Of a DNA stretch of 34,704 bases, positions 2,662 to 31,825 are shown in pieces. Both the position numbers and the translations under genes were made by a program. Under the pieces are notes generated by a model. That model searched no databases and had not been told where the DNA came from. It worked only from the letters and a program-made list of their open reading frames with translations. The first letter of the stretch is position 1. The number at the start of each line of letters is the position of its first letter. Source of the DNA: an uncultured Oscillospiraceae bacterium (GTDB taxonomy: Bacteria > Bacillota > Clostridia > Oscillospirales > Oscillospiraceae); assembly GCA_949841465.1 (NCBI GenBank), contig CATKZW010000034.1, positions 1 through 34,704 of the forward strand, written 5' to 3'.

Positions 2662-3672
2662 ATGCCATCACCCAAGGAAAAGCCCAAAGGGGCAAAAACG
2701 AAAAAGAGCACCGGGAAAGCTGCCGCCCGGTCACAGCCCGCCATTTCCGCAAAACAGGCGGCAAAACTCCTGAAGGATAAGTATGTCCAGCAGCTTGACC
2801 AACGCCAGCCGGAGAGCGGCAGCGCCGAGACTCAGGCCGTCGATCAGGTGGAGGGGGGCGGGAGCTGGGCCGTGGACGAGCTGTTGGCCCATGAGCGGCC
2901 CCGGTCCGCCCGAAAGCCGGAACAGGGGATCAAGGAGCGGCCCCAGGACGCGCCAAAAGGCGCAGAGCCTTCGGGAACCCCGTCAGCCGCGCCGGAGGCC
3001 GGCGGTCCGCCAAGCCATGAGACCGCCGCCAGTTCCCGCCAGCGGCCGGGGCCTACTCCCAAAGAGAAGGCGGCCCAGGTGAAGGGGACGCGCCCGCAGA
3101 GGGCGGCAGCTCCCGCAGAACCCTCCGCACCGCCCGCCACCGGGCCAGCAGACGCCCCCGCCCGCACCATGCGGATCAGGGAGCGCCCCGCTGTCCGGCT
3201 GAAAGAGCAGCGGGCCGGGGCTGCGGCCCCCAGCATAAAAGAAAAACCTTCTTCTCCCGCTGATCCATCTATCCCATCTATCAAATCAATCCAATCCATC
3301 CCATCATCCAAAGAGCGCCCAGCTCCGCCAGCGGCAGGCCGCTCCACCGCTCCCGCCGCAAGCCAGCCAAGGCTTGGGCCGAGTTCCACCCAGCCCAAGC
3401 GGGAAATCAGACGGCAGATGTTGGAAAAATCCCGGCACAGCTTTCCCCGCCAGCCGGGAGGCGCTGACCCGCGCAAGGCCCCCAGTGCCGCGCCCTCAGC
3501 CCGCAGTACAGGCCGGAATGTACTTCCGCGCAAAGGAACCGGCAGCAAGGGCAGCGCCCCAAAAATCCGGGGAACCGTCTATCGGAAGGGCGTTTCCACA
3601 CCCAAGACGGCCCGTGTCCCTATCAAGTCCGCTGTCTCCCGGCCTGTCCGGGGCATCCGGCCTGTCGCATGA
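2662..3672 (+). CDS. Pro/Ala/Lys-rich low-complexity protein of a conjugation module
   Basis: This is a 336-residue protein of strongly biased composition, rich in Pro, Ala, Ser, Arg and Lys, with recurring short KERP/KEKP/RERP motifs about every 20-40 residues, and very basic in its last third. No enzymatic domain or membrane segment is visible, and it is probably largely disordered. ATG at 2662 is chosen because GGGGGAA sits just before it; the frame is open further upstream but has no ribosome site there. Its stop overlaps the start of the NlpC/P60 gene (ATGA at 3669-3672), so the two are likely translationally coupled. In Firmicutes conjugative elements a variable disordered protein often precedes the cell-wall hydrolase of the transfer apparatus. 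A scaffold or DNA/cell-wall tethering role is inference only. Confidence 0.7.
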   Translation: MPSPKEKPKGAKTKKSTGKAAARSQPAISAKQAAKLLKDKYVQQLDQRQPESGSAETQAVDQVEGGGSWAVDELLAHERPRSARKPEQGIKERPQDAPKGAEPSGTPSAAPEAGGPPSHETAASSRQRPGPTPKEKAAQVKGTRPQRAAAPAEPSAPPATGPADAPARTMRIRERPAVRLKEQRAGAAAPSIKEKPSSPADPSIPSIKSIQSIPSSKERPAPPAAGRSTAPAASQPRLGPSSTQPKREIRRQMLEKSRHSFPRQPGGADPRKAPSAAPSARSTGRNVLPRKGTGSKGSAPKIRGTVYRKGVSTPKTARVPIKSAVSRPVRGIRPVA

Positions 3673-4850
3673 CCCAACAAGCCATGCGACAGGCCGGAAA
3701 AGCCGTTAAAACCTCAGCGGCGGTCCTGAAAAAAACGGCGGTTGTTGTGACAAAGGCCGCGTCCGCCCTTATCAGCGCCCTTGCGGGCCTTGTGGGAGGC
3801 GGTATCCTGCTGCTGGCTATGGTGGTGGTCATTGTGATCGCCGCCATCGCCAACTCCCCCTTTGGGCTTTTCTTCGCCCAGGAGCCGAACGCCCCGGACA
3901 CCGTATCCGTGGCTCAGGCGGTGGGAACGGTCAATATGGCCTACAACAGCCGGTTGGAGCTGCTGCAAGCCGGGGACTATGACGCCATCACCCTGGACGG
4001 GCAGGCCCCGGATTGGGCGGAGGTGCTGGCCGTGTTTGCCGTCAAGACAGCCGGGGCCGATGTGGATGGCCTGGACGTGGCCACGCTGGACCCGGACAGG
4101 GTAAGCAAACTGACTGCTGTGTTTTGGGATATGACCGGGATCGCCGTATTGGAAGAAACCGTTGACCATCCGGCCAGCGGCGCCACGGAAGCCTGGACGG
4201 AGACAATTTTACATATCATGATCACGCCCAAAACCGCGGATGATATGCGCGTCTCCTACGGATTTTCCGAATACCAAAACAGCGCCCTTGACGAGCTGCT
4301 GTCTGACCGGGCCGCTCTGACCTCCCTGGCCGGGAGCCTTGCTATTACCAGCGCCGACGTGCGGGAAGTGCTGGCTGCCCTCCCGGATGATCTGGACCCG
4401 GCCCGCAGGGAGGCCGTACAGACCGCCCTCCAGCTTGTAGGAAAAGTCAACTACTTTTGGGGCGGCAAAAGCTATGTAATCGGCTGGGACCCCCGCTGGG
4501 GCCAGCTTGCAAAAGTGTGGTCAGCGGGCAATTCCACCACCGGCACCTACCGCCCCTTTGGGCTGGACTGCTCCGGCTTTATTGACTGGGCCCTACGGAA
4601 CGCGGGACTCCACAGTGACGGCCACTGGTACATCGGCACGAACCTGACGGCGGTATCACAGGCGGACGCCCTTCCCGGCGACCTCGCCCTGTACCCGGAC
4701 GCATCCCATGTCGGCATGGTGGTGGGCCGGAATGAGACCGGGAAACTGCTGGTCTGTCACTGTTCCAGCGGACAGAATAATATTGTCGTGACCGAGTTTA
4801 CCGCTTCCGGCTTTACTGTTGTTGGCAGGTCCGGCATTTACAGCACTTGA
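3669..4850 (+). CDS. Membrane-anchored NlpC/P60 cell-wall hydrolase (conjugation type)
   Basis: This is a 393-residue protein with a hydrophobic span at about residues 33-62, a long extracellular middle region and a C-terminal NlpC/P60 papain-like domain. The catalytic Cys301 lies in LDCSGFIDW, the His347 in SHVGMVVG, and a further His follows in the CHCSSG segment. Such enzymes cleave peptidoglycan stem peptides. In Gram-positive conjugative elements they open the wall for the type IV secretion channel. The start overlaps the preceding stop by 4 nt. The gene is followed by the palindrome at 4854 and the terminator at 4892, which closes this transcript. The other transfer genes (ATPases, relaxase) are absent from the window, so this is a fragment of an element or its edge. 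Confidence 0.85.
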   Translation: MTQQAMRQAGKAVKTSAAVLKKTAVVVTKAASALISALAGLVGGGILLLAMVVVIVIAAIANSPFGLFFAQEPNAPDTVSVAQAVGTVNMAYNSRLELLQAGDYDAITLDGQAPDWAEVLAVFAVKTAGADVDGLDVATLDPDRVSKLTAVFWDMTGIAVLEETVDHPASGATEAWTETILHIMITPKTADDMRVSYGFSEYQNSALDELLSDRAALTSLAGSLAITSADVREVLAALPDDLDPARREAVQTALQLVGKVNYFWGGKSYVIGWDPRWGQLAKVWSAGNSTTGTYRPFGLDCSGFIDWALRNAGLHSDGHWYIGTNLTAVSQADALPGDLALYPDASHVGMVVGRNETGKLLVCHCSSGQNNIVVTEFTASGFTVVGRSGIYST

Positions 4851-6684: not shown

Positions 6685-6744
6685 TATCCTACAATATACA
6701 ATATTCGACAAAATTTTATTCCTATGCCGGAGGAGGTTTGTTCC

Positions 6745-8517
6745 ATGGCAGGGCAGCAGTATCCCTTTTCCAAAAGCCGCTATTTCCCCCATAAGCGGAT
6801 GCGCTCTGCGGATTTTATCCAGGACCAGGAATACATTGAGGGCAAGCTGGCTTTTTTCAGCCGCCTGGGTTTTGGAAAGGGTGCGGCGCTTGGGCTGGAG
6901 GTCCAGCGCATCGACGGGGACTCCCTGCTGGTGTCTCCGGGTTTTGCCGTGGACGGATGTGGGCGCTGGCTGATTGTAGACGAACCCGCCATCTGCCGCC
7001 TGCGGACCATTCCCGGCTTTGACACCCTGTGCGGCGAAACCGCTCTTCTATGGCTGACCTACTGCGAAGAACTCACAGACGCCATGTTTGTCCCCGGCGA
7101 ACGAGATGAGGTCCAGGAGTACGCATCGGCGCGGGAACGCTTTTCCTTTTGCCTCACGGATATGCGGCGGCTTCCTCGGCCGCTCGGAGACCATGTGCTG
7201 TTTTCCGACGTAATTCTTTTTGAGGATGGCGACCTGCGCATTCGACAGGTGATTCCCAAGGTTTTGCCTGCCGAGGGGATGGTGCAGCTCCGTCTTGTGG
7301 TCGAATCCTTTTGCCTGGAGCCGCTGGAAATCCATCTGTGCTACGCGCCGCGGCTGCCCGGCTTCCTGTTGAAGGATGGACAGCCGCTTTTATTGGAGCG
7401 AACGCTGCGCCTGAGCCAGGGGGAGACCACCCTGGCGCTGACCGGAAGACTTTCCACCACCGCCCAGGCCGTTTTGCTGTCCCTGCCGGAGCACGGCTTC
7501 TTGCTGGAAAAGCGGGGCATCCGGCTGCGGGCCCAGTGTGAGGTCCAGGAGGAGCTTCCCGTAACCCAGGACCCGCTCCCCGCGCTGCGTGACCGCCTGC
7601 TGTCGCAGGGGCCGCAGGAGCTGTGGGCGGACGAACTGGAGGAGGGCGTTCCAATTGCCGGTCTCCGCCTGCTGCGGTATGGAGACCAGACTCTGCTGAG
7701 CGACGCATTTCCCCTTTCAAAGGGCTGCCGAGCGGAGCTGCCCTGTCTGGAAGCGCGTCTGCGTCACTGCCAGGGGTTTTTCCCCAAAGACCAGGCATCG
7801 GCTCAGCCGCCCCCAAAAGCGCCGGGACCGCCGGCGCCGCCGGCTGCCTCAAGCGGCCAAAGGCTGATGAGCACAGGGGTCGTCACCCTGAACACCGGCC
7901 TCCATTTACAGGAGGGAAATATTCTCTGCTCTGACGAGACCGCCCATGAACTGGGGCCGGGTACTGTCTTTGTGGAATTCGGCGTTGAAAACATCTATCC
8001 TGTCCCCGGAGTGGACCGCAATTACACCGACCTTCTGCTGGGTGACGCCTCCCTGTTTGCTCAGGCCAGCGGCACCTATGACTGCGGTTTCGACCAAGGC
8101 GTACGGGTCCATCCGGAGAAAGGGACCTTTGAATTGGCCGTCCGGCTGAAGGGCGAGCTGCGCCAGTCTGCCCTGCGGCTGCGCTGGTTCGCCTGGCGGC
8201 CGGGTGAGGATGCGGGCCCCGGCGTCCAGTCCGGCACACTGCTGCGGCTGGAACCGGACGTAGCGCATATTGCCCCAGGCGGAATGGTCGATTTTGTTCC
8301 CATTTTTGCCCAAGGAACCGGGATGCCCTGCGACTTTATGGTCCTGGACAAGCACTCTGGAACCATCACGCCCAACGGCATCTACACCGCGCCCAAGAAG
8401 GAGGGCCTCTACCAAATCTGCGCTCAGATCAGAGATATGCCGGAAACCAGGGTGAGCGCCTTTGCCATTGTGCGGACGCCTGCGGAGGAACCAGCGGATG
8501 CGGCGGGCACTCTTTGA
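6745..8517 (+). CDS. CIS-associated beta-rich protein, possible fibre or exterior component
   Basis: This is a 590-residue protein. ATG at 6745 is chosen because GGAGGAGG (6729-6736) lies 8 nt before it; the upstream ATG at 6724 has no such site. The N-terminal region (about residues 18-75) has the pattern ...RSADFIQDQEYIEGKL...GLEV...VSPGFAVDGCGRW. It resembles the conserved N-terminal module of proteins encoded in many eCIS clusters, where it usually reads as a 'ADDF..EQ.Y..' segment and a following 'SPG.A.D..GR' strand. A Pro/Ala-rich linker lies near residues 355-370. The C-terminal end (about 505-580, with ITPNGIYTAP and an alternating strand pattern) resembles a bacterial Ig-like domain. 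No signal peptide or membrane span is seen. As the first gene of the operon, its role (surface decoration, receptor binding or membrane-complex partner) is inference. Confidence 0.6.
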   Translation: MAGQQYPFSKSRYFPHKRMRSADFIQDQEYIEGKLAFFSRLGFGKGAALGLEVQRIDGDSLLVSPGFAVDGCGRWLIVDEPAICRLRTIPGFDTLCGETALLWLTYCEELTDAMFVPGERDEVQEYASARERFSFCLTDMRRLPRPLGDHVLFSDVILFEDGDLRIRQVIPKVLPAEGMVQLRLVVESFCLEPLEIHLCYAPRLPGFLLKDGQPLLLERTLRLSQGETTLALTGRLSTTAQAVLLSLPEHGFLLEKRGIRLRAQCEVQEELPVTQDPLPALRDRLLSQGPQELWADELEEGVPIAGLRLLRYGDQTLLSDAFPLSKGCRAELPCLEARLRHCQGFFPKDQASAQPPPKAPGPPAPPAASSGQRLMSTGVVTLNTGLHLQEGNILCSDETAHELGPGTVFVEFGVENIYPVPGVDRNYTDLLLGDASLFAQASGTYDCGFDQGVRVHPEKGTFELAVRLKGELRQSALRLRWFAWRPGEDAGPGVQSGTLLRLEPDVAHIAPGGMVDFVPIFAQGTGMPCDFMVLDKHSGTITPNGIYTAPKKEGLYQICAQIRDMPETRVSAFAIVRTPAEEPADAAGTL

Positions 8518-9343
8518 TTCCCTGCACACCCTCCGGCTGGAGCGGGAGAGCAAAAATGGCTGCGCAGAGCTCTGCCGGGCGCCGGATGGGACCCGCTGGA
8601 CAAAGCTTCGACTAACCGCCCCCGCCTGCCAGCGCGAATGTCTGGCCGAGCTGGGGCAAAACGTTCCGGTCCGGCTGGAAAACGGTGTGCTGGAGCTGCT
8701 GCTGCCCTGGAGAGAGGGCCTGCCCCTGCGCCAATGGCTCTGCGAACAAAACCCCACCCTTGGACAGCGGCGGGACGCCTGTCTAACCCTTCTGGAACAG
8801 CAGCTGGAGCTTCGGGGCAGGCTGCCTTTCTGCCTGACCATACTGGCCGCGTCGCCGGAAAACCTGGTGAACAACGGAACGGGGCTGCTCCTGCAATACA
8901 TTCCAAATCTCCAGGGCTGGGAGCCGGATATGACAGAGGCGCAGGCCGTCCGCGCTCTGGCGGGCGTTATTTACGAGGTGCTGGTGACGGAGGCGGACTG
9001 GACCCGCCGGGGACGAATCCCGGCAGAGGTCCGGCTGCTGCGTTTCCGGCAAAGTGAGCAATGCCGCATCGATTGGGGGCAGCTTCAGCGTGATTTGACC
9101 GCGATTCCGGACCATCCGCCCCGCATAAGTTCCATCCTGTGCGCCCGGGCACAGCGGGCGCGGGACAGCCTGTGCCGAATGTGTCCCCTCCTTCTGCGGG
9201 CGCTGGCGGCTTTGCTGTTTGCCGCCGCGCTGCTCTCCCTGGCCATGGCGTACCGCCGGCAGGGAGCCAAGGAGCCGAGCGCTTGGCCGGGTATGCCCCA
9301 GGTGGGCGATCAGGATCTGCGGAACGGGGAGGACGGCGGATGA
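8498..9343 (+). CDS. Membrane protein with pseudokinase-like cytoplasmic domain
   Basis: This is a 281-residue protein starting at ATG 8498, with GGAGGAA shortly upstream, inside the end of the previous gene. A large N-terminal cytoplasmic part is followed by one membrane span (about 230-252) and a short exterior tail. The soluble part has a kinase-like layout. ELLLPW followed by LRQWL resembles the hinge and alpha-D, then comes a long helix, and SPENLV resembles the catalytic loop. The HRD Asp-containing motif and the DFG motif are missing, so catalysis is unlikely. A cytoplasmic pseudokinase plus one span is the architecture of EssB/YukC in type VII secretion; the likeness is architectural and not proven homology. 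The stop overlaps the next start (ATGA at 9340). It probably forms a membrane complex with the next two gene products. Confidence 0.5.
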   Translation: MRRALFDSLHTLRLERESKNGCAELCRAPDGTRWTKLRLTAPACQRECLAELGQNVPVRLENGVLELLLPWREGLPLRQWLCEQNPTLGQRRDACLTLLEQQLELRGRLPFCLTILAASPENLVNNGTGLLLQYIPNLQGWEPDMTEAQAVRALAGVIYEVLVTEADWTRRGRIPAEVRLLRFRQSEQCRIDWGQLQRDLTAIPDHPPRISSILCARAQRARDSLCRMCPLLLRALAALLFAAALLSLAMAYRRQGAKEPSAWPGMPQVGDQDLRNGEDGG

Positions 9344-11979
9344 GAGCTCAGATATTCACATGGCTGCGCCAAAAGCGCCGTCTGCTGGTCCGGGAACTGA
9401 TCCTTGTGGCCTGCGCGTTGGCGCTGGGCCTGGGCTATAGCCTTTGGCGGTCAGATACCTATCTGCCGTCCATCGACGGCAACATCTATTCCATGCTGGC
9501 CCTGGACGACTCCCTGCTCATGGTGCTCTCCCATGGGAACCGCAACAGCCTGGTCCGCGTCAGCCCCGACGGGGTTTTGCTCAATTACATGGACACCGTT
9601 CAGGGACAGGCTTTTCAGTACCTGGAATCAGACGGCGAAACGGTCTACGCGATTCTGTCCTATGAAAAAAACGGGGCGGCCCGGCAGCGGTTGGTCTCCC
9701 TCTCCCTGAAGCAGACGGCCATGCGGGCCAAGCCTCTAGTTGAGCTGACAGGGCTGCGCGGCGCTCCGGCAGATGTGGTGTGGCGGCAGCTTTATCTGCC
9801 GTCGGAGGGCGAAAGCGCCCCGGCGCTGAAGCTGGCCGGCCTGGACAGCCGGGGGCAGAGCTACCTGGCCCGCTGGGATATGGCGGCCGGTCAAGCGGAG
9901 GTCCAGCGGATATTGCCGGAGGAGCCGGTTTTGTTCATCAAATATGTGTCGGAGGATCACTATGTCTGGGTCAACCAGAGCAAAGAGGTTGGGCAGTACA
10001 TCGGTGGAATCTGGCAGCGGGACATTCTGTCCGGGGCGTCTCATACGCCGCTGCACATCTCCACCTGTGGCACGCGCTGCTTTATTTCCGACAGCGTAAG
10101 CGGAGACATTTTTCAGGTGTTCCCGGATGGAAGCTCCGTCCTTTTTCGCCGGGGTACCGATGGGATCGGCTCCTCCGGCTTCCAATACCGGCAGCTGGAA
10201 ATCTACACCACGTATCTGTCGCCGGAGGGTGAGACCAGGGTAGTGGGGCTGTGCGCCGGCGAACACGGCAGCGTGATCACCGGCGAGGACTGGAACATCC
10301 GCGGGCTGTACCCGGGCGTTCTCCGCCTGTTAATGATTTGGCGGCATGGGTGGCTGGCGGCCGCCGTGTGCTGGGTCATACTCGCTGTGTTTGTGGAGGC
10401 GGTCCATGGGGTCCTGCGCTCTCCCCGACTGTCCGTCCGCCTGCTGCTGTGCGAAGTCATGATTGCCGCGTTCCTGCTCACCGCCGTCACCGCGGTACAG
10501 TATCGCTCCTTTCAGCAGACCCTACGGGAAGAGGCCTATCAAAAGCTCCGGCTGATCGGCGGCAGCCTGGCGGCAGCGCTGACCTCCGGAGAGCCCGGCG
10601 AATCGCTGGACGGCACCGTTGGGAAGCTGGAGCGGCAGGTGGGCGCGGCAGCGGACGCAGGGGAGCGGGAATATGCCGTATGCGTGGTCTGGGACACGGA
10701 GAACGGGCCGGTCATCGCCTCAGACAGCGGGGTGCCGGACGGCTACCTGCTGGAGGATGTAAAGTCCAGAGGCTATTTTTCCGCCGTTTCCCAGGTCCTT
10801 CGCAGCGGCGCCTCCTCCTTGGAGCGTGTTCAGACCGACATCAGCTTTGACTATGTATACGCCCAGCCCTTCTTTCAGGGTGGCCGGTCCGGCTGTGTGG
10901 CGGTGTCGCAGAGCGAGGATTCCATGCTGGCCGGACGGCTCCAGTTTTTCCGGAGCCTGCTGCCCATCCTGGCCGCCTGTCCGCCGCTGTTTCTGCTCCT
11001 GGCCTGGATCACCCGGCGTCTGCTCAGCCCCCTGGACGAAATTCAGCGGGCGCTGGAGGAATTTTATACCTGCGGGAGCGGCGGCCAGATGTGCTTGGAG
11101 GGAATGCCCCGCACCGAGCTCTATGAGGTGGGGCGGGTGTTCAACCAGCTCTCCGTACAGACCAGGGTGCAGCTCAATGAACTGCACACCATCAACGATT
11201 CCTACGTGCGCCTGGTGCCCGACTGCCTGCTGGGTATGCTGCGCAAGCGGGGCGTTACCCAGTTGGAGGCTGGCGACCACACCCCGGTGGACGGCGCACT
11301 GCTGATTTTGATCCCCAGGAATTTTTTCACCGGCTGGGAGAATCTGGACCGTTTGACCCGGCTGGCGGCGGATCACATTGCGGAATCAGGCGGTATGCTG
11401 GTGGATTATGACGAGGGTCTGAACGCTCTGGTCTCCCTATTCCCCCAGACGGAGGGGGCGCACGCCTGCGCGCTGGCCTGTCTGGAGCGGCTGGAACGGC
11501 AGGGTATGCCGGTTATGGCCGCTGTTCTGGAGGAAACCGTGGAGCTTGGCGTATTTGGAAGTGAGAAGCTGCTCTATCCCCTGGCGGTCTCCCAGGATAT
11601 GAGCCGAAAACAGGAAGCGCTGGAGCGGCTTTTGGGCTTCGGCGCGGTGCTGGTGCAGAGCGGCCGCACCCAAGGGACGCATCTGCGGCTGCTGGGCTGG
11701 GATGGTGAGCTGGCGTTCTATGAGGACCCCGCCTGCCGTCCGCCCAGCTGGCAGAGCCAGTGGAAGCTGTCTGCCGGCCCGTGGGAGGAGGCGCTGCGCC
11801 GGTTTCGGGAGCAGGATTTCTCCGCGGCGGGGCGGCTGTTCGCGAAGGTGCTGCGCCTGATGCCGGAGGATATGGCCGCCCGCTGGTATTTGTTCCGCTG
11901 TGAAGCGCTGCGCGGCGGAGTGCCCCAGGCGTCGGACACCGGACTTTTATTCGACTGGGAGGGCCTCGGCCATGGATAA
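9340..11979 (+). CDS. Beta-propeller/HAMP/degenerate cyclase membrane sensor
   Basis: This is an 879-residue protein starting in the ATGA overlap at 9340. Visible in order are a membrane span at about 15-37 and an exterior region of about 290 residues with repeated strand-turn units (LVRVSPDG, LVSLSL, SYLARWD, DIFQVFPDG) suggesting a beta-propeller. Two spans follow (338-356 and 368-388), then a second exterior sensor-like domain (390-535), a fourth span (540-558) and a HAMP-like segment (to about 615). Next is a class III cyclase-like domain (about 620-790), opened by SYVRLVPDCLLGML, and a TPR-like tail. Where active cyclases have the metal-binding Asp (VLFSDIR pattern), this protein reads LLILIPR, so it is probably a pseudo-cyclase. 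The topology is self-consistent, with an odd number of spans before each exterior domain. In this operon it is a good candidate for sensing and relaying an envelope signal to the CIS. Confidence 0.6.
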   Translation: MRAQIFTWLRQKRRLLVRELILVACALALGLGYSLWRSDTYLPSIDGNIYSMLALDDSLLMVLSHGNRNSLVRVSPDGVLLNYMDTVQGQAFQYLESDGETVYAILSYEKNGAARQRLVSLSLKQTAMRAKPLVELTGLRGAPADVVWRQLYLPSEGESAPALKLAGLDSRGQSYLARWDMAAGQAEVQRILPEEPVLFIKYVSEDHYVWVNQSKEVGQYIGGIWQRDILSGASHTPLHISTCGTRCFISDSVSGDIFQVFPDGSSVLFRRGTDGIGSSGFQYRQLEIYTTYLSPEGETRVVGLCAGEHGSVITGEDWNIRGLYPGVLRLLMIWRHGWLAAAVCWVILAVFVEAVHGVLRSPRLSVRLLLCEVMIAAFLLTAVTAVQYRSFQQTLREEAYQKLRLIGGSLAAALTSGEPGESLDGTVGKLERQVGAAADAGEREYAVCVVWDTENGPVIASDSGVPDGYLLEDVKSRGYFSAVSQVLRSGASSLERVQTDISFDYVYAQPFFQGGRSGCVAVSQSEDSMLAGRLQFFRSLLPILAACPPLFLLLAWITRRLLSPLDEIQRALEEFYTCGSGGQMCLEGMPRTELYEVGRVFNQLSVQTRVQLNELHTINDSYVRLVPDCLLGMLRKRGVTQLEAGDHTPVDGALLILIPRNFFTGWENLDRLTRLAADHIAESGGMLVDYDEGLNALVSLFPQTEGAHACALACLERLERQGMPVMAAVLEETVELGVFGSEKLLYPLAVSQDMSRKQEALERLLGFGAVLVQSGRTQGTHLRLLGWDGELAFYEDPACRPPSWQSQWKLSAGPWEEALRRFREQDFSAAGRLFAKVLRLMPEDMAARWYLFRCEALRGGVPQASDTGLLFDWEGLGHG

Positions 11980-13396
11980 GCCGCAGGGAAATCGGACCGG
12001 CTTAGGGCCAAAGGACTACTGGCACATCGGCCCGGTCTATGTGCACAAACAGCTGGCCCTGCTGGCTCTGGCCGGGCTGTCCGCCGCGGTTTTGCTGATT
12101 TTCGGCCTTCCCTCCCCAGCCCCCGTCCCTGAGGCAGGCCTGATTCCAGCCTTCCGCTACGATGACCCTGAGCTGGCTGAGCAGTCCGGCATGGTTCAGG
12201 TTCTGGACGGTCAGGACCGTGTGCGCTATCTTGGAGAGGTGGCGGCGGGAGCCTACACCGGCCGGGGCAAGGTGTTCAATGAGGCCGGAGAGCTGCTGTA
12301 TGACGGCCCCCTGGCGGAAGGGGTGTACGAGGGCGGGGACGCGAACGTCTATCGAGGCGGAACGCTGGTCTACACCGGGGAAATGGCGGCGAATTTATAT
12401 GAGGGCCAGGGCCGCCGGATCGACCCTGCGGCGGGGGTCGTCAGCGAGGGCCAGTTCTCCAAGGGCTGTCTGGAGGGACAGGGCCGGGAGTTCTATGCCG
12501 ACGGCACGCTTCTGAGGGAGGGCAGCTTCTCTCGCGACCTTTTGGAGGGCGAGGGGGCGGAGTACAGTCCGGAGGGCGTTCTGCTTCGGGAAGGGACCTT
12601 TTCCGCCGGCCTGCTTCACGGGGAGGGCCGGGCGTACACCGCCGGCGGCAGGCTGCGCTATGAGGGGCAGTTTTGGCGGGGCATCTACCATGGGCAGGGC
12701 ACGATCTATGATACACTGCTGAACGTCCGCAGTGCCGAAGGGACCTTTGTGTACGGCACGCTGACCGGCCTGGGTACGATCTACCATCCCAGCGGACAGC
12801 TGCTCTACACCGGCCAGGTCTATGAGCAGCGCCCCAGGGCCGATGCCTTTTTGGGCTTGTCTCTGGCCGAGGTGGAGCAGGCCTTCACCACCCACTGGAT
12901 CCTCTACTCTTTTGAAGGGACGACCGCCTTTGTCTATCCCTATTTCAGCTTGATGTTCCTCACCGAAAGCCCAATTCGTCTTGTTTCCCCCGGCGCTCCG
13001 GAGGAGCCGGACCTGGAAGAGCCCGGGCTGTACGAGGACGAGATTCTTGCCCCTGATACCGACAAGGGGGCGGTTCTCATCACGCAGGCGCTGTCCTACG
13101 GGCAGCCGCTTCCCTGCGTTGCCCAGCCGGAGACGGATACAGCATCCGGGCGGCACGCTCCCGGCTGCCGGGAGTGGTTCAGCGCCTTCGCCTTGGGAGA
13201 TTCCCTTGAAGGTGTCGGCGTCCGTCAGTCCGGCCCATTTATTTGGCGCTTTACCCCATGGTCCCAGACGGAGAGCGGCCAGGCCGTCGAGGAGTTCCGG
13301 ACCGAGGGCACCGGATTGGAGACGATGACCGTGTACCAAAATCAAAAGGATATGCCGCTTTGGTATCAGACGGCACAGTGGAAGGAGGCTCCATGA
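11972..13396 (+). CDS. MORN-repeat membrane protein
   Basis: This is a 474-residue protein with a cytoplasmic N-terminus, one span (about 27-46) and a long exterior region. Residues ~85-285 consist of about nine MORN-type units with the pattern YxGxGxxY...G.L.YxG.F..G, for example YEGQGRRID, LEGQGREFYADG, LHGEGRAYTAGG and YHGQGTIYD. MORN repeats form elongated beta sheets and bind proteins or lipids. The C-terminal ~180 residues are not recognised. ATG at 11972 has GGGAGGG upstream and overlaps the previous gene by 8 nt. A MORN protein in a CIS operon next to two other membrane proteins suggests an anchoring or scaffold role at the envelope, which is inference. Confidence 0.7.
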   Translation: MDKPQGNRTGLGPKDYWHIGPVYVHKQLALLALAGLSAAVLLIFGLPSPAPVPEAGLIPAFRYDDPELAEQSGMVQVLDGQDRVRYLGEVAAGAYTGRGKVFNEAGELLYDGPLAEGVYEGGDANVYRGGTLVYTGEMAANLYEGQGRRIDPAAGVVSEGQFSKGCLEGQGREFYADGTLLREGSFSRDLLEGEGAEYSPEGVLLREGTFSAGLLHGEGRAYTAGGRLRYEGQFWRGIYHGQGTIYDTLLNVRSAEGTFVYGTLTGLGTIYHPSGQLLYTGQVYEQRPRADAFLGLSLAEVEQAFTTHWILYSFEGTTAFVYPYFSLMFLTESPIRLVSPGAPEEPDLEEPGLYEDEILAPDTDKGAVLITQALSYGQPLPCVAQPETDTASGRHAPGCREWFSAFALGDSLEGVGVRQSGPFIWRFTPWSQTESGQAVEEFRTEGTGLETMTVYQNQKDMPLWYQTAQWKEAP

Positions 13397-13956
13397 GCCA
13401 GGAACCGATTTTTGAGCGGCTGGCCGCTCTGCTGCTGGAGCGCCTGAGACGGGAGATGGTGCCGGCGGTGCTGAATTCGCCGGACGACATTAAAATGACC
13501 TATCCGGGCTCGGAGACGGACTACCGTTTTGGGGTGTTCCTATACAATATGGAGGAGCTCCGCTCCTGCGGCCCGCCGACATCCATCCGCATGGACGAGG
13601 AGACCCGGCGGCATCCTGACCGTCTGCTGGCGCTCCACTTTCTGCTCTATGCCAACCGGAAGGTGCCCTTTGACAGCCTGAGCGTCCTGGACGAAATGGT
13701 GCTTGTGGAGGCCGCCATGCGGGCCGCGCACAGCATGGGGTCCCTGACGCTGGAGGGACAGGCGGTGCGCTCCGCCCTGCATGACCCGGTGCTGTCAGAA
13801 AAAACCGCGCTGTGGCAGAGCCTGAACAGCCCGCTCCAGCCCGCCGTCTATCTGACGCTGGAGCCGGTGCGGGTCCCCAGCTCCCGCATCCGCCGCACAC
13901 CGGCGGTCCGGGAGTTCCAGCTCAACTCCAAACGGAAGGGTGTGAGCCAGGCATGA
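13393..13956 (+). CDS. DUF4255 (Pvc16-like) tail-terminator protein
   Basis: This is a 187-residue protein of the DUF4255 family, which caps the distal end of the sheath and tube in eCIS particles (Pvc16/Afp16). Supporting features are an early helix with LLLERLRREM, a beta-rich YRFGVFLYNMEEL segment, the LHFLLYAN strand and a VLDEMVLVEAAMRAAHSMGSL helix. ATG at 13393 is preceded by GGAAGGAGG and overlaps the previous stop. It is followed in ATGA overlap by the PAAR-like gene. In the assembled particle it is expected to sit at the end away from the baseplate and fix its length. Confidence 0.75.
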   Translation: MSQEPIFERLAALLLERLRREMVPAVLNSPDDIKMTYPGSETDYRFGVFLYNMEELRSCGPPTSIRMDEETRRHPDRLLALHFLLYANRKVPFDSLSVLDEMVLVEAAMRAAHSMGSLTLEGQAVRSALHDPVLSEKTALWQSLNSPLQPAVYLTLEPVRVPSSRIRRTPAVREFQLNSKRKGVSQA

Positions 13957-14339
13957 GCTTCTGCCTCTGCACCGGCGCGAGCCTCTCATGCTCCTTCGGC
14001 GCCGCTCCGGTCCCCTTCAGCGCCCTGCCCGTCCCCAGGGTGGTCATCAGCGGGCGGCCCGCCGGCGTGATGACGGATATGACCCCCATGCTCAACATCC
14101 CGCCCTTCGGAACGTGCAGCAGCCTGGCCAACCCCACAGTGGCCTCCGCCACAGCGGCGGCGCTGGGGGTGCTCACCCCCATGCCCTGCATCCCCGTCCC
14201 GGCGGGGCCCTGGCTGAACCCGGCCCCCAAGGTGATCATCGGCGGACAGGCGGCCATCTCCGACGGCAGCAAGCTGATGTGCGCGTGGGGCGGTCAGATT
14301 TCCGTACAGTTCGCCGGTCAAACCTGCGTACAACTATAA
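13953..14339 (+). CDS. DUF4280 PAAR-like spike-tip protein
   Basis: This is a 128-residue, Cys-, Pro- and Gly-rich protein of the DUF4280 type: CTGASLSCSFG near the start, PMLNIPPFGTCSSLANP in the middle, a CIPVPAGPW turn and a terminal AISDGSKLMCAWGG. The family forms a PAAR-like cone that sharpens the central spike. ATG at 13953 overlaps the preceding stop (ATGA). A short gap to the sheath gene follows. It would bind the tip of the spike encoded at 19762. Standing alone rather than fused to an effector suggests a structural role here. Confidence 0.8.
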   Translation: MSFCLCTGASLSCSFGAAPVPFSALPVPRVVISGRPAGVMTDMTPMLNIPPFGTCSSLANPTVASATAAALGVLTPMPCIPVPAGPWLNPAPKVIIGGQAAISDGSKLMCAWGGQISVQFAGQTCVQL

Positions 14340-14360: not shown

Positions 14361-16079
14361 ATGGCGGAATATTTATCTCCCGGCGTCTATGTGGAGGAAT
14401 TTGACTCCGGCGTCAAGGCCATGGAGGGCGTTGGCACCAGCACAGCAGGGTTTGTCGGCCTGGCGGAAAAGGGGCCGGTGACGGGCCGGCCGGTTCTGCT
14501 GACCAGCTTCGCGGAGTATCAGCGCCGGTTCGGCGGGTATCTCTCCGATCTGGAGTACGGTCCCTACCGCTTCCTGCCCAACGCGGTGGAGCAGTTCTTT
14601 ACCAATGGGGGCAGCACCTGCTATGTGATGCGCACCGCCCCGGAGGATGCCGCCTGCGCCAAGAGCGGGGAAGGGCCCGTCACGGTGCGGGCCAAGGACC
14701 CCGGCGCCTGGGCCAACACCATGCAGGTGTTCTTTACCCGGAGCACCCGGGCCAGGACGCAGGTCCTGAACACCCAGGAGGGCGTGAGCGGGAAGCAGTA
14801 CCTGCTAAAAAACGCCGCCGGTTTCCGGGTGGGCGACCTGGTCATCTACCGGGGGGAGGACGGCTCCGCCGCCTACCACAAGGTCACCGCCCTGAACGGC
14901 CTGCTGATCTCCTTCCAGGAGGCGCTGCCGGAGGACGCGGTGGACACCAGCCTGGTGCCCACCCGCACCCTGGAAGCCTGTGGGGTGGACATGGTGATCC
15001 GCTGCGGCGGGCAGGAGGAGAGCTATCCCGGCTGTTCCCTCAACTCCGCAGCCCCCGATTATCTCCTCGCGGCGCTGGAAAAGTCCAACATGGCGGCTAT
15101 GACGTTGAATATTCCGGACCGGGCGGACGACCTGCTGGTCCTGCTGGGCGGGAGCGCCGGCGCGGAGAGCCTGCGTGTGGAGCTGAGCGGCGGGCTGAAC
15201 GGCACCATGGACAGCGTGAACGCGGGAACCTTCAACGGCGCCGATCTGGGACCGGGCAAGCGCTCCGGCATTGAGGCGTTCCAGGAGATCACCGATGTGT
15301 CCATCATGGCGGTTCCCGGCGTGACGGACGCCAACGTGCAGGCCAAGCTGATCGCCCACTGCGAGGGGCTGACCAGCCGGTTCGCCGTGCTGGACGCTCC
15401 CCTGGACTGCACCGGCGTGGACGAGCTCAACCGCCACCGCAGCGCCTATGACACCACCTACGCCGCCCTGTACGCCCCCTGGGTCCAGGTCTACGACCCC
15501 CTGCTGCGCCGGCCCACCTTCCTGCCCCCCTCCGGCTCCATGTGCGGAATCTATGCCCGCACGGACATACAGCGGGGCGTGTTCAAGGCCCCAGCCAACG
15601 AGGTGGTCCAGGCCTGCACCGGACTGTCGGTGAGCTACAACGCGGCGGAGCAGGGCAAGCTCAACCCCAACGGCGTCAACCTGATCCGGGCCATTCCTGG
15701 TCAGGGCATCCGGGTTTGGGGGGCCCGCACCTGCTCCAGCGATGGGAACTGGAAATATGTAAACGTCCGCCGCCTGTTTATCTTTCTGGAGGAATCCATC
15801 CGGGCCAACACCGGCTGGGTGGTCTTTGAACCCAACGACGAGGGTCTGTGGTCCCGGGTCCGGGGGACCATCTCCCTGTTTCTGGAGACCCAGCGGCGCA
15901 TCGGCGCGCTGGCCGGCTCCACGCCGGAGCAGGCCTACTATGTGGACGTGGGCCCCAACACTATGACCCAAGACGACATCCTCAACGGACGGCTGATCTG
16001 CGAGATCGGCGTGGCCCCGGTGCGTCCGGCGGAGTTTGTCATCTTCCGCATCACCCAGATCACCCAGGCCGCGACCTGA
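14361..16079 (+). CDS. Contractile tail sheath protein
   Basis: This is a 572-residue sheath subunit whose contraction drives the inner tube into the target. The N-terminus, YLSPGVYVEEFDSG, and the following TSTAGFVGLAEKGP are the classical sheath start. The C-terminal third (NLIRAIPGQGIRVWGARTCS, the YVNVRRLFIFLEESI helix and NTGWVVFEPND) is the conserved core that builds the helical mesh. The less conserved middle (about residues 100-250) is the exposed insertion domain. The length is normal for eCIS sheaths. GAGGG lies upstream of the ATG. This is the first gene of the structural core, and only one sheath gene is present, while many eCIS have two or three. Confidence 0.93.
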   Translation: MAEYLSPGVYVEEFDSGVKAMEGVGTSTAGFVGLAEKGPVTGRPVLLTSFAEYQRRFGGYLSDLEYGPYRFLPNAVEQFFTNGGSTCYVMRTAPEDAACAKSGEGPVTVRAKDPGAWANTMQVFFTRSTRARTQVLNTQEGVSGKQYLLKNAAGFRVGDLVIYRGEDGSAAYHKVTALNGLLISFQEALPEDAVDTSLVPTRTLEACGVDMVIRCGGQEESYPGCSLNSAAPDYLLAALEKSNMAAMTLNIPDRADDLLVLLGGSAGAESLRVELSGGLNGTMDSVNAGTFNGADLGPGKRSGIEAFQEITDVSIMAVPGVTDANVQAKLIAHCEGLTSRFAVLDAPLDCTGVDELNRHRSAYDTTYAALYAPWVQVYDPLLRRPTFLPPSGSMCGIYARTDIQRGVFKAPANEVVQACTGLSVSYNAAEQGKLNPNGVNLIRAIPGQGIRVWGARTCSSDGNWKYVNVRRLFIFLEESIRANTGWVVFEPNDEGLWSRVRGTISLFLETQRRIGALAGSTPEQAYYVDVGPNTMTQDDILNGRLICEIGVAPVRPAEFVIFRITQITQAAT

Positions 16080-28129: not shown

Positions 28130-29428
28130 ATGGAAGCACGATTGCTGAAGCAAAAAATGGAGGGGCCGGAGGTCAAAAAGCCAAACCTGACCGGTATCCC
28201 CACCCAGATGAAGCTGAATTTTGAGCAGCGCAGCGGCCTGTCCTTCGACGATGTGCGGGTGCATTACAGCTCGGACAAACCCGCGCGGCTGGGGGCGTTG
28301 GCCTACACCCAGGGCAATGAGGTCTACATGGGCCCTGGGCAGGAACGGCACCTGTCCCATGAGCTGGGCCATGTGGTCCAGCAGAAGGCCGGACGGGTCC
28401 GCCCCACGGGGTGGATCGGCGGGCTGCCCCTCAACGACCAGCCGGAGCTGGAGCGGGAGGCCGACCGTGCGCCGGTGCAGTGCATGCCGGCGCCAGGCGG
28501 GCAGGATGTGGTCCAGCGGCAGCCTGACCCTGAGGAAGAGGAGGAGGAAGATGTGGGGCAGGCCGTCCTGCCTTTTGGCGACAGCTCCGCATGGTATGGT
28601 TCTATACACGATGGATATGTAGGAAGTATGTATCTTGAACACGGACGGCTGCGATTGATACATGACTTTGGGCCGGAGGCAGAGCAAACAAAAGATGAGG
28701 CCAAGCATACTGATGTCGTTCGCTATCTCATCCTATCGGATAATGATGATCTAGTTAATCTTGTGGCCAATCAATTAATAAAACTTTATGATACGGGCGC
28801 AGCGCCGGCAATAGACTCTATGCAGACGATCCTGGGCTGCTCCGTCTATCCATTGTCCGACAGCGCTTCTCTGGCGCGGTTGGGGCTGTCGCCAGAGGAA
28901 ATGGCGGCCGCAAGGCTGTTTGAGATATACCTATCGGACGGAGAATGCCGTGCTGACCATATGTCCAGAGGCGGTATTGCCCAATTACCTCCCAAGTGGA
29001 CAGACCCCACACAGGGTTCGAAGGAAAACCTCAGCGCCCTTACCTATGCGGTATCGATTGCAGAGCTGGTTTCCAAGCAAATGGCTCAATGCTATAAAAA
29101 TATCATTCCAAATATTTTAATAAATTCCCCAGAGGCGGCTTCCAATCTTTCTCAAACCGGTATATTGGTCGCAACGAGGATAATCAATTCCGCCTACTCC
29201 GACCAGCAAAGTGAGATCGCTGACAAACTGCTAGGCGAAATAAATCAGGTCATGTCGGAAGAGACAATGAGGAACGCTATAGAGGTATCCATTTATGAAG
29301 ATTATGAAGAATATGACTATCGGCCACTTAGATTTGGCGGTTTCCTGGGAAACAAAATACTAAGGGCGTCAAACCTGCTCACTCTAGAAAATTTAGGGTT
29401 CGCTGTAGACCCGGAAGAATCTGATTGA
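28130..29428 (+). CDS. DUF4157 metalloprotease-like eCIS cargo with unknown C-terminal domain
   Basis: This is a 432-residue protein. Residues ~20-115 form a DUF4157 domain, the eCIS-associated zincin-like module: LSFDDVRVHYSSDKPARLGALAYTQG in part, then the zinc motif His77-Glu-Leu-Gly-His81, with Glu110 (in LEREAD) as a likely third ligand. A Pro/Gln and Glu-rich linker follows (about 115-143, six Glu in a row). The C-terminal ~290 residues are mostly helical with a Gly/Arg-containing end, and I do not recognise them. From about 28,600 the DNA turns visibly AT-richer than the rest of the operon, a sign that this part was acquired separately. DUF4157 proteins are common CIS cargo or toxins, with the N-terminus serving loading or self-processing. 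The gene follows the AAA+ gene by one base, and no immunity gene is obvious. Confidence 0.75.
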   Translation: MEARLLKQKMEGPEVKKPNLTGIPTQMKLNFEQRSGLSFDDVRVHYSSDKPARLGALAYTQGNEVYMGPGQERHLSHELGHVVQQKAGRVRPTGWIGGLPLNDQPELEREADRAPVQCMPAPGGQDVVQRQPDPEEEEEEDVGQAVLPFGDSSAWYGSIHDGYVGSMYLEHGRLRLIHDFGPEAEQTKDEAKHTDVVRYLILSDNDDLVNLVANQLIKLYDTGAAPAIDSMQTILGCSVYPLSDSASLARLGLSPEEMAAARLFEIYLSDGECRADHMSRGGIAQLPPKWTDPTQGSKENLSALTYAVSIAELVSKQMAQCYKNIIPNILINSPEAASNLSQTGILVATRIINSAYSDQQSEIADKLLGEINQVMSEETMRNAIEVSIYEDYEEYDYRPLRFGGFLGNKILRASNLLTLENLGFAVDPEESD

Positions 29429-29479
29429 TCCCTTCCGGCTATCAAATCATAGTTTACATACAAGGGATGGGATCAGCAT

Positions 29480-31825
29480 ATGTTGGCGCCGTTGATCGTA
29501 ATTTCCCATACGCTTCGGGATGCCTTCCAGCGGGGACTGGCCCAAAGCAAGCTCCTGTTCCTCTCCGCCGGGCCCGGCTGGGGCAAAACCACCGTGGTGA
29601 CCGAGCTGCTGGAAAAGCAGAATCCCGCTTACCTCTCTCTGCGCAAACGGTCTCTGCCCCGTCGCTTCTCCAGGGAGCGGCTGATTATCTTGGACGACTT
29701 TCAGGCGCTGCCCGCCCAGGCAGAGGGGCTTTTTCAGGACATTCTGCGGCGGTCGCCCCCAGGACAGCGCTTTATCCTGCTCTCCCGGGGGCCCGTGCCG
29801 GAATATCTCTTCCCCTGCGAGGCCGCCGGAGCGCTGCTCCGTCTGGGTGAGGCGGAGCTGGCGCTGGATATGGACTGCCTGTGCCAACTGGCTCAAGCGC
29901 ACGGACTTGACCTCTCCGTCTACGAGCTTCAGCGGCTTCTGGATGAGACGGGGGGCTGTCCCCCGGCGGTCAGCCTTCTTCTGGCAGCCCTTTCCGCCGG
30001 ACAGCCGTTTCAACAGCGGACGGTCGATGCCGTGCGGGCCAAGATGGGCGCGTATATGGAGGAGGCCACTCTGCGGCCCCTGCCGCCGGCGGAGCAGAAG
30101 CTGCTGCTGGAGCTGGCCCTGTTTGACCGGTTCGACCAGGTCCTGGCAGACACGCTCGCGGAGCCCGGAACCGCCCCCGCCGAGCTGGAGCGGATCTGGC
30201 GGACCAGCGGGCTGGTCCAGCCGGACGGCCCCCTTTGGACCGTCTGTGACCGGCGCTTTCTTCTGCCCTATTTGCGGCAGAAGCTTCGGATGGGCCCGCC
30301 CGAATGGCTCCAGACCCTCCACCTCGCCGGCGGACGCTGGTGTGCCGCCAGGCAGGATCTTTCAGGGGCGCTGCATCACTACCAACAGGGGGGCAGCCGG
30401 GAAAAGCTTCTTGATCTGCTGGTCCAAACCGCCCGGCTGCGTCCAGGCGCCGAGGCATGCCGGGGGCTGTGGGACTGCGCCGGTTTTCTGAGGGAGGAGG
30501 ATATTCTGCAATTTCCCGACCTGATCTGCGCCATGAGCCTGCTTCGGTCCATGACCCTTGAACCGGAGGAATCTGAACAATGGTATGAAGCGCTGAACAG
30601 GTATCTTCAGCACATGGACCGTGGGGACGAGGACTACAAACGTGTGCGGGGTCTGCGGTCCTATCTGGATCTCTGCCTGCCTCACCGGGGAACGGCGGGA
30701 CTGCCCGAAATAATCCTCCGTGTGGATGAGCTCCTGCGCTCCAAGGCGCTGGTTTTGCCGGGAATAGATGTGACCGGTGGCCTGCCCAGCCTGATCCGGG
30801 GCGGGAGGGACTTTTCCCAATGGATTCACAGAGCGCAGGAACTTTATGACACCATCCGCGGCCCAGTGGAGCGGGTATTGGGCCGGGCGGGCGTGGGAGT
30901 GGGTGAGCTTGCTCTGACGGAAGGCCTTCTGGAACAGGGCGAGGACATATCGGGCCGTTTCCCCGCTCTGGCGGCCCTGCAGGAGATACTGCGGGCCGGG
31001 GGTGCGTTGGAACTTGAATTTGTGTGCACCGCTCTGCTGGTGAGGGCGCTGTGCGCAGCAGGAAGCCCGTCCGGCGCGGAGACACTGCTGCTTCGGTTTC
31101 GCGCGGAAGCGGCACAGGCCAACGCGCCGCGCATCCTGTCCAACCTCGACGCTATGCGCTGCCGGCTGAGCCTGCTGGTGGACGGGCCTTATGTCACGGT
31201 TTGGGCCGCCGAACAGCCCCCTGGAGAAGATATTTTCCTCTGGGCGGACAGCTACCGATGTCTTACCATGGTACGCTGCTTGCTGCGGGATCAAGAGCAC
31301 CATGCCGCATTGCTCCTGCTGAGCCGTATGCTGGATTACTTTCAGCGCTGTGACCGTCCCCTGGACAGGCTGGAGGCGTTGATCTTGACTGCGATTTGCC
31401 GGTTTCGCATGAGCCGTGAGGACTGGAGAGAGTACCTTGCCCAAGCCCTGGAGTTTGGAGCACGCTACGGCTATGTGTCGGTATTTGCCCGGGAGGGCGC
31501 TGCGCTGCTGCCTCTGCTGGAATGCGGCGGGCACAAAAATCTAAACCCTGCCTACTGGGAGCGTATCCTGTCTGAAACTGTGACGCAGGCCGGGTACTAT
31601 GGCCAGTATCTCAGGCCCTTCCGTGCCCCAATCAGCCCATTGACGCAAAAAGAGCGCATGGTTTTGCGCCTGATCAGCCAGAACAAGAACAATGAGGAGA
31701 TTTGTGCCCTTATGAATATCAAGCTTCCCACGGTGAAGACCCATGTCCACAATCTGCTGAGGAAGCTGAACGTATCAAACCGGAACCAGATCCAGAGGGC
31801 GGCTGAGTGGCTGAGGCTTTTCTGA
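29480..31825 (+). CDS. Large ATP-binding LuxR-family (MalT-like) regulator
   Basis: This is a 781-residue STAND-type regulator. The N-terminal P-loop (SAGPGWGKTTVV, about residues 29-40) and an ILDDFQALP Walker B-like strand indicate ATP binding. A long helical repeat region follows (about 300-690). The C-terminal LuxR helix-turn-helix is at about 719-777: PLTQKERMVLRLISQNKNN, EEICALMNIKLPTVKTHVHN and LLRKLNVSNRNQI. ATG at 29480 has GGGATGGGA upstream. It lies 51 nt after the cargo gene in the same direction and may be the last gene of the operon or have its own promoter. Such proteins act as signal-dependent activators; control of the eCIS is inference from position. Confidence 0.88.
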   Translation: MLAPLIVISHTLRDAFQRGLAQSKLLFLSAGPGWGKTTVVTELLEKQNPAYLSLRKRSLPRRFSRERLIILDDFQALPAQAEGLFQDILRRSPPGQRFILLSRGPVPEYLFPCEAAGALLRLGEAELALDMDCLCQLAQAHGLDLSVYELQRLLDETGGCPPAVSLLLAALSAGQPFQQRTVDAVRAKMGAYMEEATLRPLPPAEQKLLLELALFDRFDQVLADTLAEPGTAPAELERIWRTSGLVQPDGPLWTVCDRRFLLPYLRQKLRMGPPEWLQTLHLAGGRWCAARQDLSGALHHYQQGGSREKLLDLLVQTARLRPGAEACRGLWDCAGFLREEDILQFPDLICAMSLLRSMTLEPEESEQWYEALNRYLQHMDRGDEDYKRVRGLRSYLDLCLPHRGTAGLPEIILRVDELLRSKALVLPGIDVTGGLPSLIRGGRDFSQWIHRAQELYDTIRGPVERVLGRAGVGVGELALTEGLLEQGEDISGRFPALAALQEILRAGGALELEFVCTALLVRALCAAGSPSGAETLLLRFRAEAAQANAPRILSNLDAMRCRLSLLVDGPYVTVWAAEQPPGEDIFLWADSYRCLTMVRCLLRDQEHHAALLLLSRMLDYFQRCDRPLDRLEALILTAICRFRMSREDWREYLAQALEFGARYGYVSVFAREGAALLPLLECGGHKNLNPAYWERILSETVTQAGYYGQYLRPFRAPISPLTQKERMVLRLISQNKNNEEICALMNIKLPTVKTHVHNLLRKLNVSNRNQIQRAAEWLRLF

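Follow-up and report, generated by a model that had tools for sequence, protein, structure and literature searches.

A putative membrane module encoded within a contractile injection system operon of Clostridia

The window, that is, the whole stretch of DNA analysed here (34,704 nucleotides), is one entire contig (CATKZW010000034.1, our G000:C34) of an uncultured Oscillospiraceae bacterium whose genome comprises 136 contigs and 3.09 Mb; the named homologues of its proteins belong to Oscillibacter and Oscillospiraceae. It carries the operon of a contractile injection system (CIS) in which three consecutive genes, here called A, B and C, encode a pseudokinase-like protein, a receptor with a cyclase-like domain and a protein with MORN repeats. 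The link of these three genes with the CIS is strong. We infer that A, B and C probably form a membrane module by which the CIS is held at the membrane of the cell that makes it and a cue from outside is turned into contraction.

Gene order and co-occurrence with the sheath

The host operon is a contractile injection system of the extracellular (eCIS) lineage, with genes for sheath, tube, CIS_tube, gp25, J-like, Tail_I, AAA, Pvc16 and eCIS core proteins in a single cluster. Pfam matches above cut-off confirm Pvc16_N, DUF4280, the sheath, two gp19-type tube proteins, CIS_tube, gp25, AAA and the eCIS core; the matches for GPD, the spike, the J-like protein and Tail_I fall below cut-off, yet these genes are co-located in the operon. 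The genes from the foot gene to the sheath all lie on the forward strand. The first encodes a 597-residue protein with a Cis13-type baseplate foot/fibre N-terminus (6724..8517), referred to as the foot protein, and overlaps A (8498..9343, 281 residues) by 20 nucleotides. A overlaps B (9340..11979, 879 residues) by 4 nucleotides, B overlaps C (11972..13396, 474 residues) by 8, C overlaps the gene of a Pvc16-type cap protein (13393..13956; Pvc16_N, E 4.6e-12) by 4, and the latter overlaps that of a DUF4280 PAAR-like tip protein (13953..14339; E 7.8e-27) by another 4. With an overlap at every junction from the foot gene on, the three genes lie inside a coupled chain headed by the foot gene. This bears out the preliminary description of the region as a coupled three-gene membrane module inside the CIS operon, before the cap and tip genes and with overlaps of 4-8 nucleotides. 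A gap of 21 nucleotides separates the DUF4280 gene from the sheath gene (14361..16079; Phage_sheath_1, E 3.5e-20), which served as the marker for the survey.

The survey sampled 394 genomes of the order and 391 genomes of the class, and the window's sheath found matches in 24 of the former and 24 of the latter. A wide profile of A matched 23 of the 394 order genomes, 19 of them strongly (E<1e-45, a threshold set after the gap was seen), and all 19 are among the 24 sheath genomes (Fisher 4e-28). The remaining four hits to A, with E from 1e-6 to 6e-4, fall on the span-bearing later part of the protein and come from genomes without a sheath match. The close profile of B matched 14 of the 394 order genomes; in 13 of the 14, B lies in the CIS cluster, and the remaining genome, G018, matches in the HAMP part only. 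Homologues are thus not found mostly away from CIS genes. Strong sheath loci (E<=1.1e-115) number 28, with 22 in the order and 6 more in the class, and leaving out G194 gives 27 evaluable clusters. C is present in 27 of them, B in 25, A in 24, and all three in 22, so that operons otherwise identical to that of the window do not regularly lack the module, which was found under ten family labels of the window's class, gut Oscillospiraceae included; the named homologues indicate that this class is Clostridia. G194 itself (C13:6387-8129) has an intact sheath gene that shares 63% identity with that of the window and stands alone, no further CIS gene being matched within 40 kb.

The close B profile misses distant B; genome-wide absence of B was therefore judged with a wide profile, all candidates being scored. 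Over the class as a whole, the wide profile matched 353 of 391 genomes, mostly in the HAMP region among the matches listed; in that scan at most two candidates were scored per genome and only those with E<1e-36 were followed. An iterated B model drifted to HAMP proteins, and rows with E>1e-100 were dropped, save the G341 piece, the second half of which was found separately. A search of contigs with B retrieved two loci: L154 (Oscillibacter sp.) has A and B together with the foot gene, and L155 has a piece of AAA and a 90-residue fragment of B. A phage or plasmid origin of B was considered and rejected, since tblastn against 50,697 phage records and 72,556 plasmid records gave no match. A scan of viral contigs with A matched 35 stretches, none encoding a relative.

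The block foot-(A)-B-C-..-Pvc16-DUF4280 stands upstream of the sheath in the window, G218, G295, G318, G079 and others, and the same block stands downstream of Tail_I in G251, G330, G067, G274 and others, with its order largely kept. Exceptions to the order are B placed after DUF4280 (G119, G105 and G589) and A inverted (G251 and G378); as to strand, C is opposite to B in G716, and the B-C-DUF4280 group is opposite to the foot gene in G418. The pairwise distances of all three proteins follow those of the sheath, with r of 0.920 for A (20 clusters), 0.895 for B (23) and 0.905 for C (22), values reached in 0 of 2000 permutations each. This co-divergence is shared descent and by itself no proof of contact.

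Eight clusters have another sheath type (different, shorter or divergent), namely those of G588, G526, G744, G627, G676, G586 and G058 and the second copy of G418, a genome that carries both cluster types. None of the eight has a match to A, B, C or DUF4280 in the DNA seen. For G627 this DNA is the entire contig, for G676 it is 46 kb, and for G588, G526, G744 and G418 it is 60 kb each; with G586 (a contig of 15 kb) and G058 it is cut short by an early contig end. In the genomes of the seven carriers other than G418, searched throughout, neither A nor B was matched (B at E 1e-20, all candidates scored), C being sought in the fetched DNA only. The two types also differ in their fibre genes. Module-type clusters have one foot protein each, of 427-646 residues, in 26 of 27 cases (none was seen in the DNA fetched for G716), whereas five of the eight other-sheath clusters have three proteins with the foot N-terminal domain, 851-1975 residues long and mostly repeated. 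The second copy of G418 has one of 964 residues and an 85-residue fragment, G058 has one of 416 residues, and G586 has none before its contig ends. In G588:C1, G526:C1, G744:C1, G676:C4 and G627:C35, three tandem fibre-like genes follow Tail_I, the last encoding 1864-1975 residues.

As to what was counted, the clusters of G105, G193, G114, G260 and G378 are split over at least two contigs each and were each counted once. Left out of both cluster types were G189 and G198, where the sheath match is weak, the isolated sheath genes of G725, G606, G515, G465 and G753, and G555; the sheath matches of G625, G674, G708 and G736, the surroundings of which were not fetched, stand outside the cluster counts. 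G700, a 9.9-kb contig with B, C, Pvc16 and DUF4280 and no sheath, stands outside the 27.

Predicted make-up of A, B, C and the foot protein

A is predicted to consist of an ordered cytoplasmic domain with a kinase fold (residues 1-207, 8498..9118), one membrane span (residues 231-249, 9188..9244, from hydropathy) and a short outer tail. The strings HRD and DFG are both absent from 19 of 19 A sequences and the aligned places are without Asp, an Asp being found one residue off at the HRD place in G119 and G105 and adjoining the DFG place in G336, G119 and G105. The span is predicted in 17 of 24 clusters. In two relatives, G097 and G251, the outer end is LysM-like (best E 0.0025, below the Pfam cut-off), which may be a sign that A touches the envelope. 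Two A genes are inverted between the foot gene and B and still open: G251:C21:28239-29492, in which the LysM-like end is kept, and G378:C62:12308-13399. In G124 (C4:46459-51025) A is missing, and the frame of B opens with residues that seem to be the beginning of A, as a deletion would leave it.

B resembles a receptor. Four to five spans are predicted in 22 of 23 sequences measured, the window's protein having four. Its beta-propeller (residues 43-317, 9466..10290) is predicted to be extracellular, and a second, Cache/PAS-like ectodomain may lie between spans 3 and 4 (residues 445-525, 10672..10914), as judged from the secondary structure of the AlphaFold2 (AF2) model only. A HAMP-like linker follows (residues 559-610, 11014..11169, boundaries approximate). 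It is assigned at the level of the family, where Pfam HAMP is matched by 14 of 22 members, the window's B itself being without such a match, and where the family profile matches HtrII (E 3.4e-6). The next domain (residues 647-795, 11278..11724) is a class III nucleotide cyclase by fold and sequence profile, with family-profile matches to Cya2 (E 9.1e-6) and CyaB (E 1.2e-4) and cyclases returned by Foldseek as well. Matches of the B profile to nanobodies in the PDB were taken as chance. The protein ends in TPR-like helices (residues 802-858, 11743..11913), seen in the AF2 model and matching Pfam TPR_19 at E 0.005, below the cut-off.

Catalysis by class III cyclases depends on two metal-binding Asp, a transition-state Asn and an Arg. 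These residues were read by aligning B to a model of ten relatives from outside CIS loci, and 22 of the 25 CIS-locus copies could be aligned at the first metal Asp. The copies of the window, G079 and G609 fell outside this alignment, that of the window being too divergent for the model; in a MAFFT alignment of the 25 CIS-locus copies with 5 database homologues (30 sequences in all) the same column reads Ile, Thr and Gln, respectively. Among the 22 alignable copies, the first metal Asp is absent from 21, none has both Asp, and none has all four catalytic residues. The ten relatives have the first Asp in 9 cases, both Asp in 7, Asn in 8, Arg in 3 and all four in 3. No CIS gene match was found in the 20-40 kb fetched around five of the ten, and the other five are in genomes without a sheath match. 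The loss of Asp at CIS loci, set against its retention in most of the relatives, points to a receptor cyclase taken over by the CIS. Judging from these residues, a receptor cyclase seems to have lost its catalysis and been put to use in B as a structural switch.

The three relatives with all four residues are HAMP receptor cyclases of 929-939 residues (G587, G477 and G450), which resemble B in their HAMP, cyclase domain and C-terminal helices. They differ from it in having both Asp, Asn and Arg in place and no CIS gene in the 20-40 kb fetched. These receptors (G587:C16:10893-13682, G477:C24 and G450:C7) are possible relatives of B's ancestor.

C would expose a short tail with a DYW..GP motif to the cytoplasm, cross the membrane once (residues 28-46, 12053..12109, from hydropathy) and carry its MORN repeats, predicted to lie outside, ahead of a C-terminal domain. 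Each of the 26 cluster homologues measured is predicted to have a span close to its N-terminus. In some clusters C is followed by additional proteins that begin with a hydrophobic stretch, where an OEP-like match and a copper amine oxidase N1 domain were seen. In one clade (G218, G295, G318, G079 and G193), two large proteins are encoded between C and Pvc16, and 9 of the 10 copies have a hydrophobic stretch at the N-terminus; in both clusters scanned the first of the two proteins has an OEP-like match, and the pair might be a wall-spanning extension. Between B and C, G139:C56, G330:C2, G260:C110 and G274:C3 have a small open reading frame (ORF; 133-192 residues) with a hydrophobic segment near the C-terminus in 4 of 4, possibly a fourth membrane part.

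Residues 15-145 of the foot protein match the NCBIfam family CIS13_fam (NF053767, E 3.4e-14). As the score of 52.9 bits is below the curated cut-off of 370 and only the N-terminus matches, we speak of a Cis13-type N-terminus and not of a family member. The protein also has a weak profile match to All3314, the crown protein of the thylakoid-anchored CIS (tCIS; E 0.17), some of its relatives match tail-fibre PHROGs, and its C-terminal region is Ig-like. No span is predicted in 24 of 26 foot proteins; those of G479 and G609 have one at residue 46. That the gene at 6724 might be TssK was considered and rejected, no Pfam match being found.

Proposed docking at the producer's membrane and competing explanations

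The sequences show the gene order, the overlaps, the co-occurrence and co-divergence, the folds (by prediction) and the missing catalytic residues; topology, complex formation, docking, sensing and firing, some of which had been suggested beforehand, are inferred. The module might work as follows. The foot protein, with its Cis13-type N-terminus, would bind A, so that A, as a pseudokinase adaptor, would be coupled to the baseplate, and A together with the cytoplasmic half of B would form the dock. B would bind a ligand outside the cell through its propeller and second ectodomain; the resulting change would be relayed by the HAMP linker to the TPR-like helices and the cyclase-like domain, and these might push on A and the foot protein and thereby on the baseplate. 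C may tie the assembly to the envelope by its outer MORN domain while presenting its short tail to the cytoplasm, and firing would be directed outward through the producer's membrane. More tentatively, and with somewhat more doubt than belief, it can be proposed that Clostridia have in this way a syringe resembling the type VI secretion system (T6SS), with a receptor-gated membrane complex, in which two dead enzymes, the pseudokinase adaptor and the exapted receptor cyclase, replace the target-binding fibres and a ligand outside the producer, not fibre contact, triggers firing through the producer's own membrane.

In the T6SS, the membrane complex TssJLM holds the contractile tail by way of the baseplate adaptor TssK. 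No Pfam match to the TssJ, TssL, TssM or TssK families was found among the 30 ORFs of the window that were scanned (E<=0.1). EssB/YukC of the type VII secretion system (T7SSb) combines a pseudokinase with a single span, as A does, but differs in its partners and in the type of secretion it serves. None of the 19 A sequences matches the EssB/YukC Pfam family (E<=0.05), and EssB does not appear among the 50 structural matches listed for A (Foldseek / VIA), a list that excludes nothing. The analogy drawn beforehand with T6SS or T7SS membrane complexes therefore fares unequally: the T7SS half comes down to a pseudokinase and a span, and the T6SS half is the stronger one, given that the fibre/foot N-terminus of the coupled neighbour is of the kind compared with TssK in a catalogue of eCIS fibres (PMC12923769). 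That catalogue, of 2026, names the N-terminal domains of fibres eBAP, reports eBAP3 in Bacillota and Actinobacteriota, likens eBAP3 fibres to TssK and, in its stated scope, excludes loci without fibre candidates (PMC12923769). The foot N-terminus is set beside the eBAP domains by description, and the comparison with TssK is that paper's own.

Several CIS membrane adaptors are already known (CisA, Hbor_38620, Cis13 of tCIS, and TssJLM), and to call the module an undescribed system, as had been proposed, is too strong, even though no description of A-B-C was found in the literature searched, which left preprints and most subscription journals outside its scope. CisA of Streptomyces coelicolor is a bitopic membrane protein required for contraction of a cytoplasmic CIS; that it senses a signal is a speculation of its authors (PMC12237407). 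Like the module, it is a membrane component encoded in the CIS cluster of a Gram-positive bacterium, in which a single span joins a cytoplasmic part to an outer domain, possibly a signal sensor. It differs in being a single protein with a disordered N-terminus and a solute-binding-like outer domain (PMC12237407), the module being built from three other families. By description, none of the three matches this make-up, A having an ordered kinase fold and a short tail, C an outer MORN domain and B several spans. Hbor_38620, the putative membrane anchor of a haloarchaeal T6SS-like CIS, is always present in one CIS clade (PMC11566945). It has six spans and a cytoplasmic domain of about 150 residues, and receptor domains do not figure in the relevant passages of that account (PMC11566945), whereas B mostly has four to five spans. 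The closest Cis11 relatives of this membrane-bound system come from Bacillota (PMC11566945), a kinship that, although it comes from a study not concerned with the present genes, fits a membrane-docked mode in this group. In tCIS, which is anchored to the producer's membrane and comprises Cis13, Cis12 and Cis19, the membrane helix is carried by Cis13 itself (PMC8894136). The likeness lies in the Cis13-type N-terminus of the foot protein (an NCBIfam name) and in the anchoring to the producer's membrane; the difference is that Cis13 has a C-terminal membrane helix, as its published description has it (PMC8894136), whereas the foot proteins are mostly spanless and separate membrane proteins are present. 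A defence system was tried as an explanation and rejected, A, B, C and two other operon proteins having no PADLOC match.

In the literature covered here, membrane contact and the firing trigger of Gram-positive CIS have CisA of Streptomyces as their one described case, to which the module would add three conserved parts whose architecture is clearly that of a receptor. This suggests that a T6SS-like docking complex arose a second time, and it opens the trigger to tests, by removal of single genes and by ligands offered to the outer domains.

Several observations weigh against docking by a three-part module. The cluster of G336 is otherwise complete and B is found nowhere in its genome with the wide profile; the genomes of G124, G716 and G418 have no A by the profile that matched 19 genomes strongly. 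Neither A nor B can therefore be strictly needed. (One cluster of G139, C17:20269-27930, also has no B, but its sheath is in two pieces, its later CIS genes were not found and it looks like a remnant; the second, fuller cluster of this genome has B.) No span of A is predicted in 7 of 24 clusters, and the B of G589 is short (564 residues), with two spans and no propeller. The catalytic residues of B have not been lost uniformly, since G251 keeps the first metal Asp (without the second Asp, Asn and Arg) and 6 of 22 copies keep the second, never together with the first; loss of catalysis is to that extent a deduction. The non-CIS relatives too may be no ordinary cyclases, Lys replacing Arg in 7 of 10. 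Plain vertical descent would also give co-divergence with the sheath, and the foot protein could be the true receptor-binding fibre of a released particle.

Among the other explanations, a checkpoint of the CisA kind fares best, although we consider it rather unlikely. The particles would be cytoplasmic and would be recruited to the producer's membrane only under stress, and firing would kill the producer. CisA is a precedent for contraction of a cytoplasmic CIS (PMC12237407), and the parts of the module suit recruitment as well as permanent docking. Yet neither A nor B nor C has the disordered cytoplasmic part and solute-binding-like outer domain of CisA, and a set of three conserved parts beside a fibre/foot protein has more the look of a permanent dock.

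A device for assembly or release, gathering or exporting ordinary particles whose foot protein is a real target-binding fibre, appears improbable. Target binding is made possible by the fibre-type N-terminus and the Ig-like C-terminal region of the foot protein, but no module was found in those clusters of the class that have long, repeated fibres (0 of 8 in the DNA seen), and assembly has no need of a HAMP receptor architecture. It is very improbable that B is a signalling sensor that never touches the particle and controls expression or loading of the CIS by way of a partner kinase or second messenger. Its descent from receptor cyclases and the MalT/LuxR-type regulator at the end of the operon are in keeping with such a role; the absence of the paired metal Asp in B (0/22) and of HRD and DFG in A (0/19) makes a messenger or phosphotransfer unlikely, and the position between foot and cap genes points to structure. 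Hardly any credence is left for unrelated envelope genes riding along in the operon, already disfavoured, for although 10 of the 18 non-window matches to B at E<1e-36 lie away from CIS (surroundings seen for 5 of the 10), co-occurrence, order and co-divergence are tight.

The MalT/LuxR-type regulator gene (29480-31825) has counterparts beside the sheath, on the opposite strand, in G119:C133:21595-24048 and G105:C124:7-2382, and may thus be a linked regulator. At 28130-29850, the eCIS core protein gene is followed by a 141-residue frame without a family match, a candidate cargo or cargo-related pair. Upstream of the operon (882-1805 and 3669-4850) lie genes for a phage-type integrase and an NlpC/P60 protein, and the CIS may adjoin or sit in a mobile region. 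The genome of the window has two more sheath-domain loci with J-like neighbours (G000:C3:103661 and G000:C26:26102), which are probably prophage tails.

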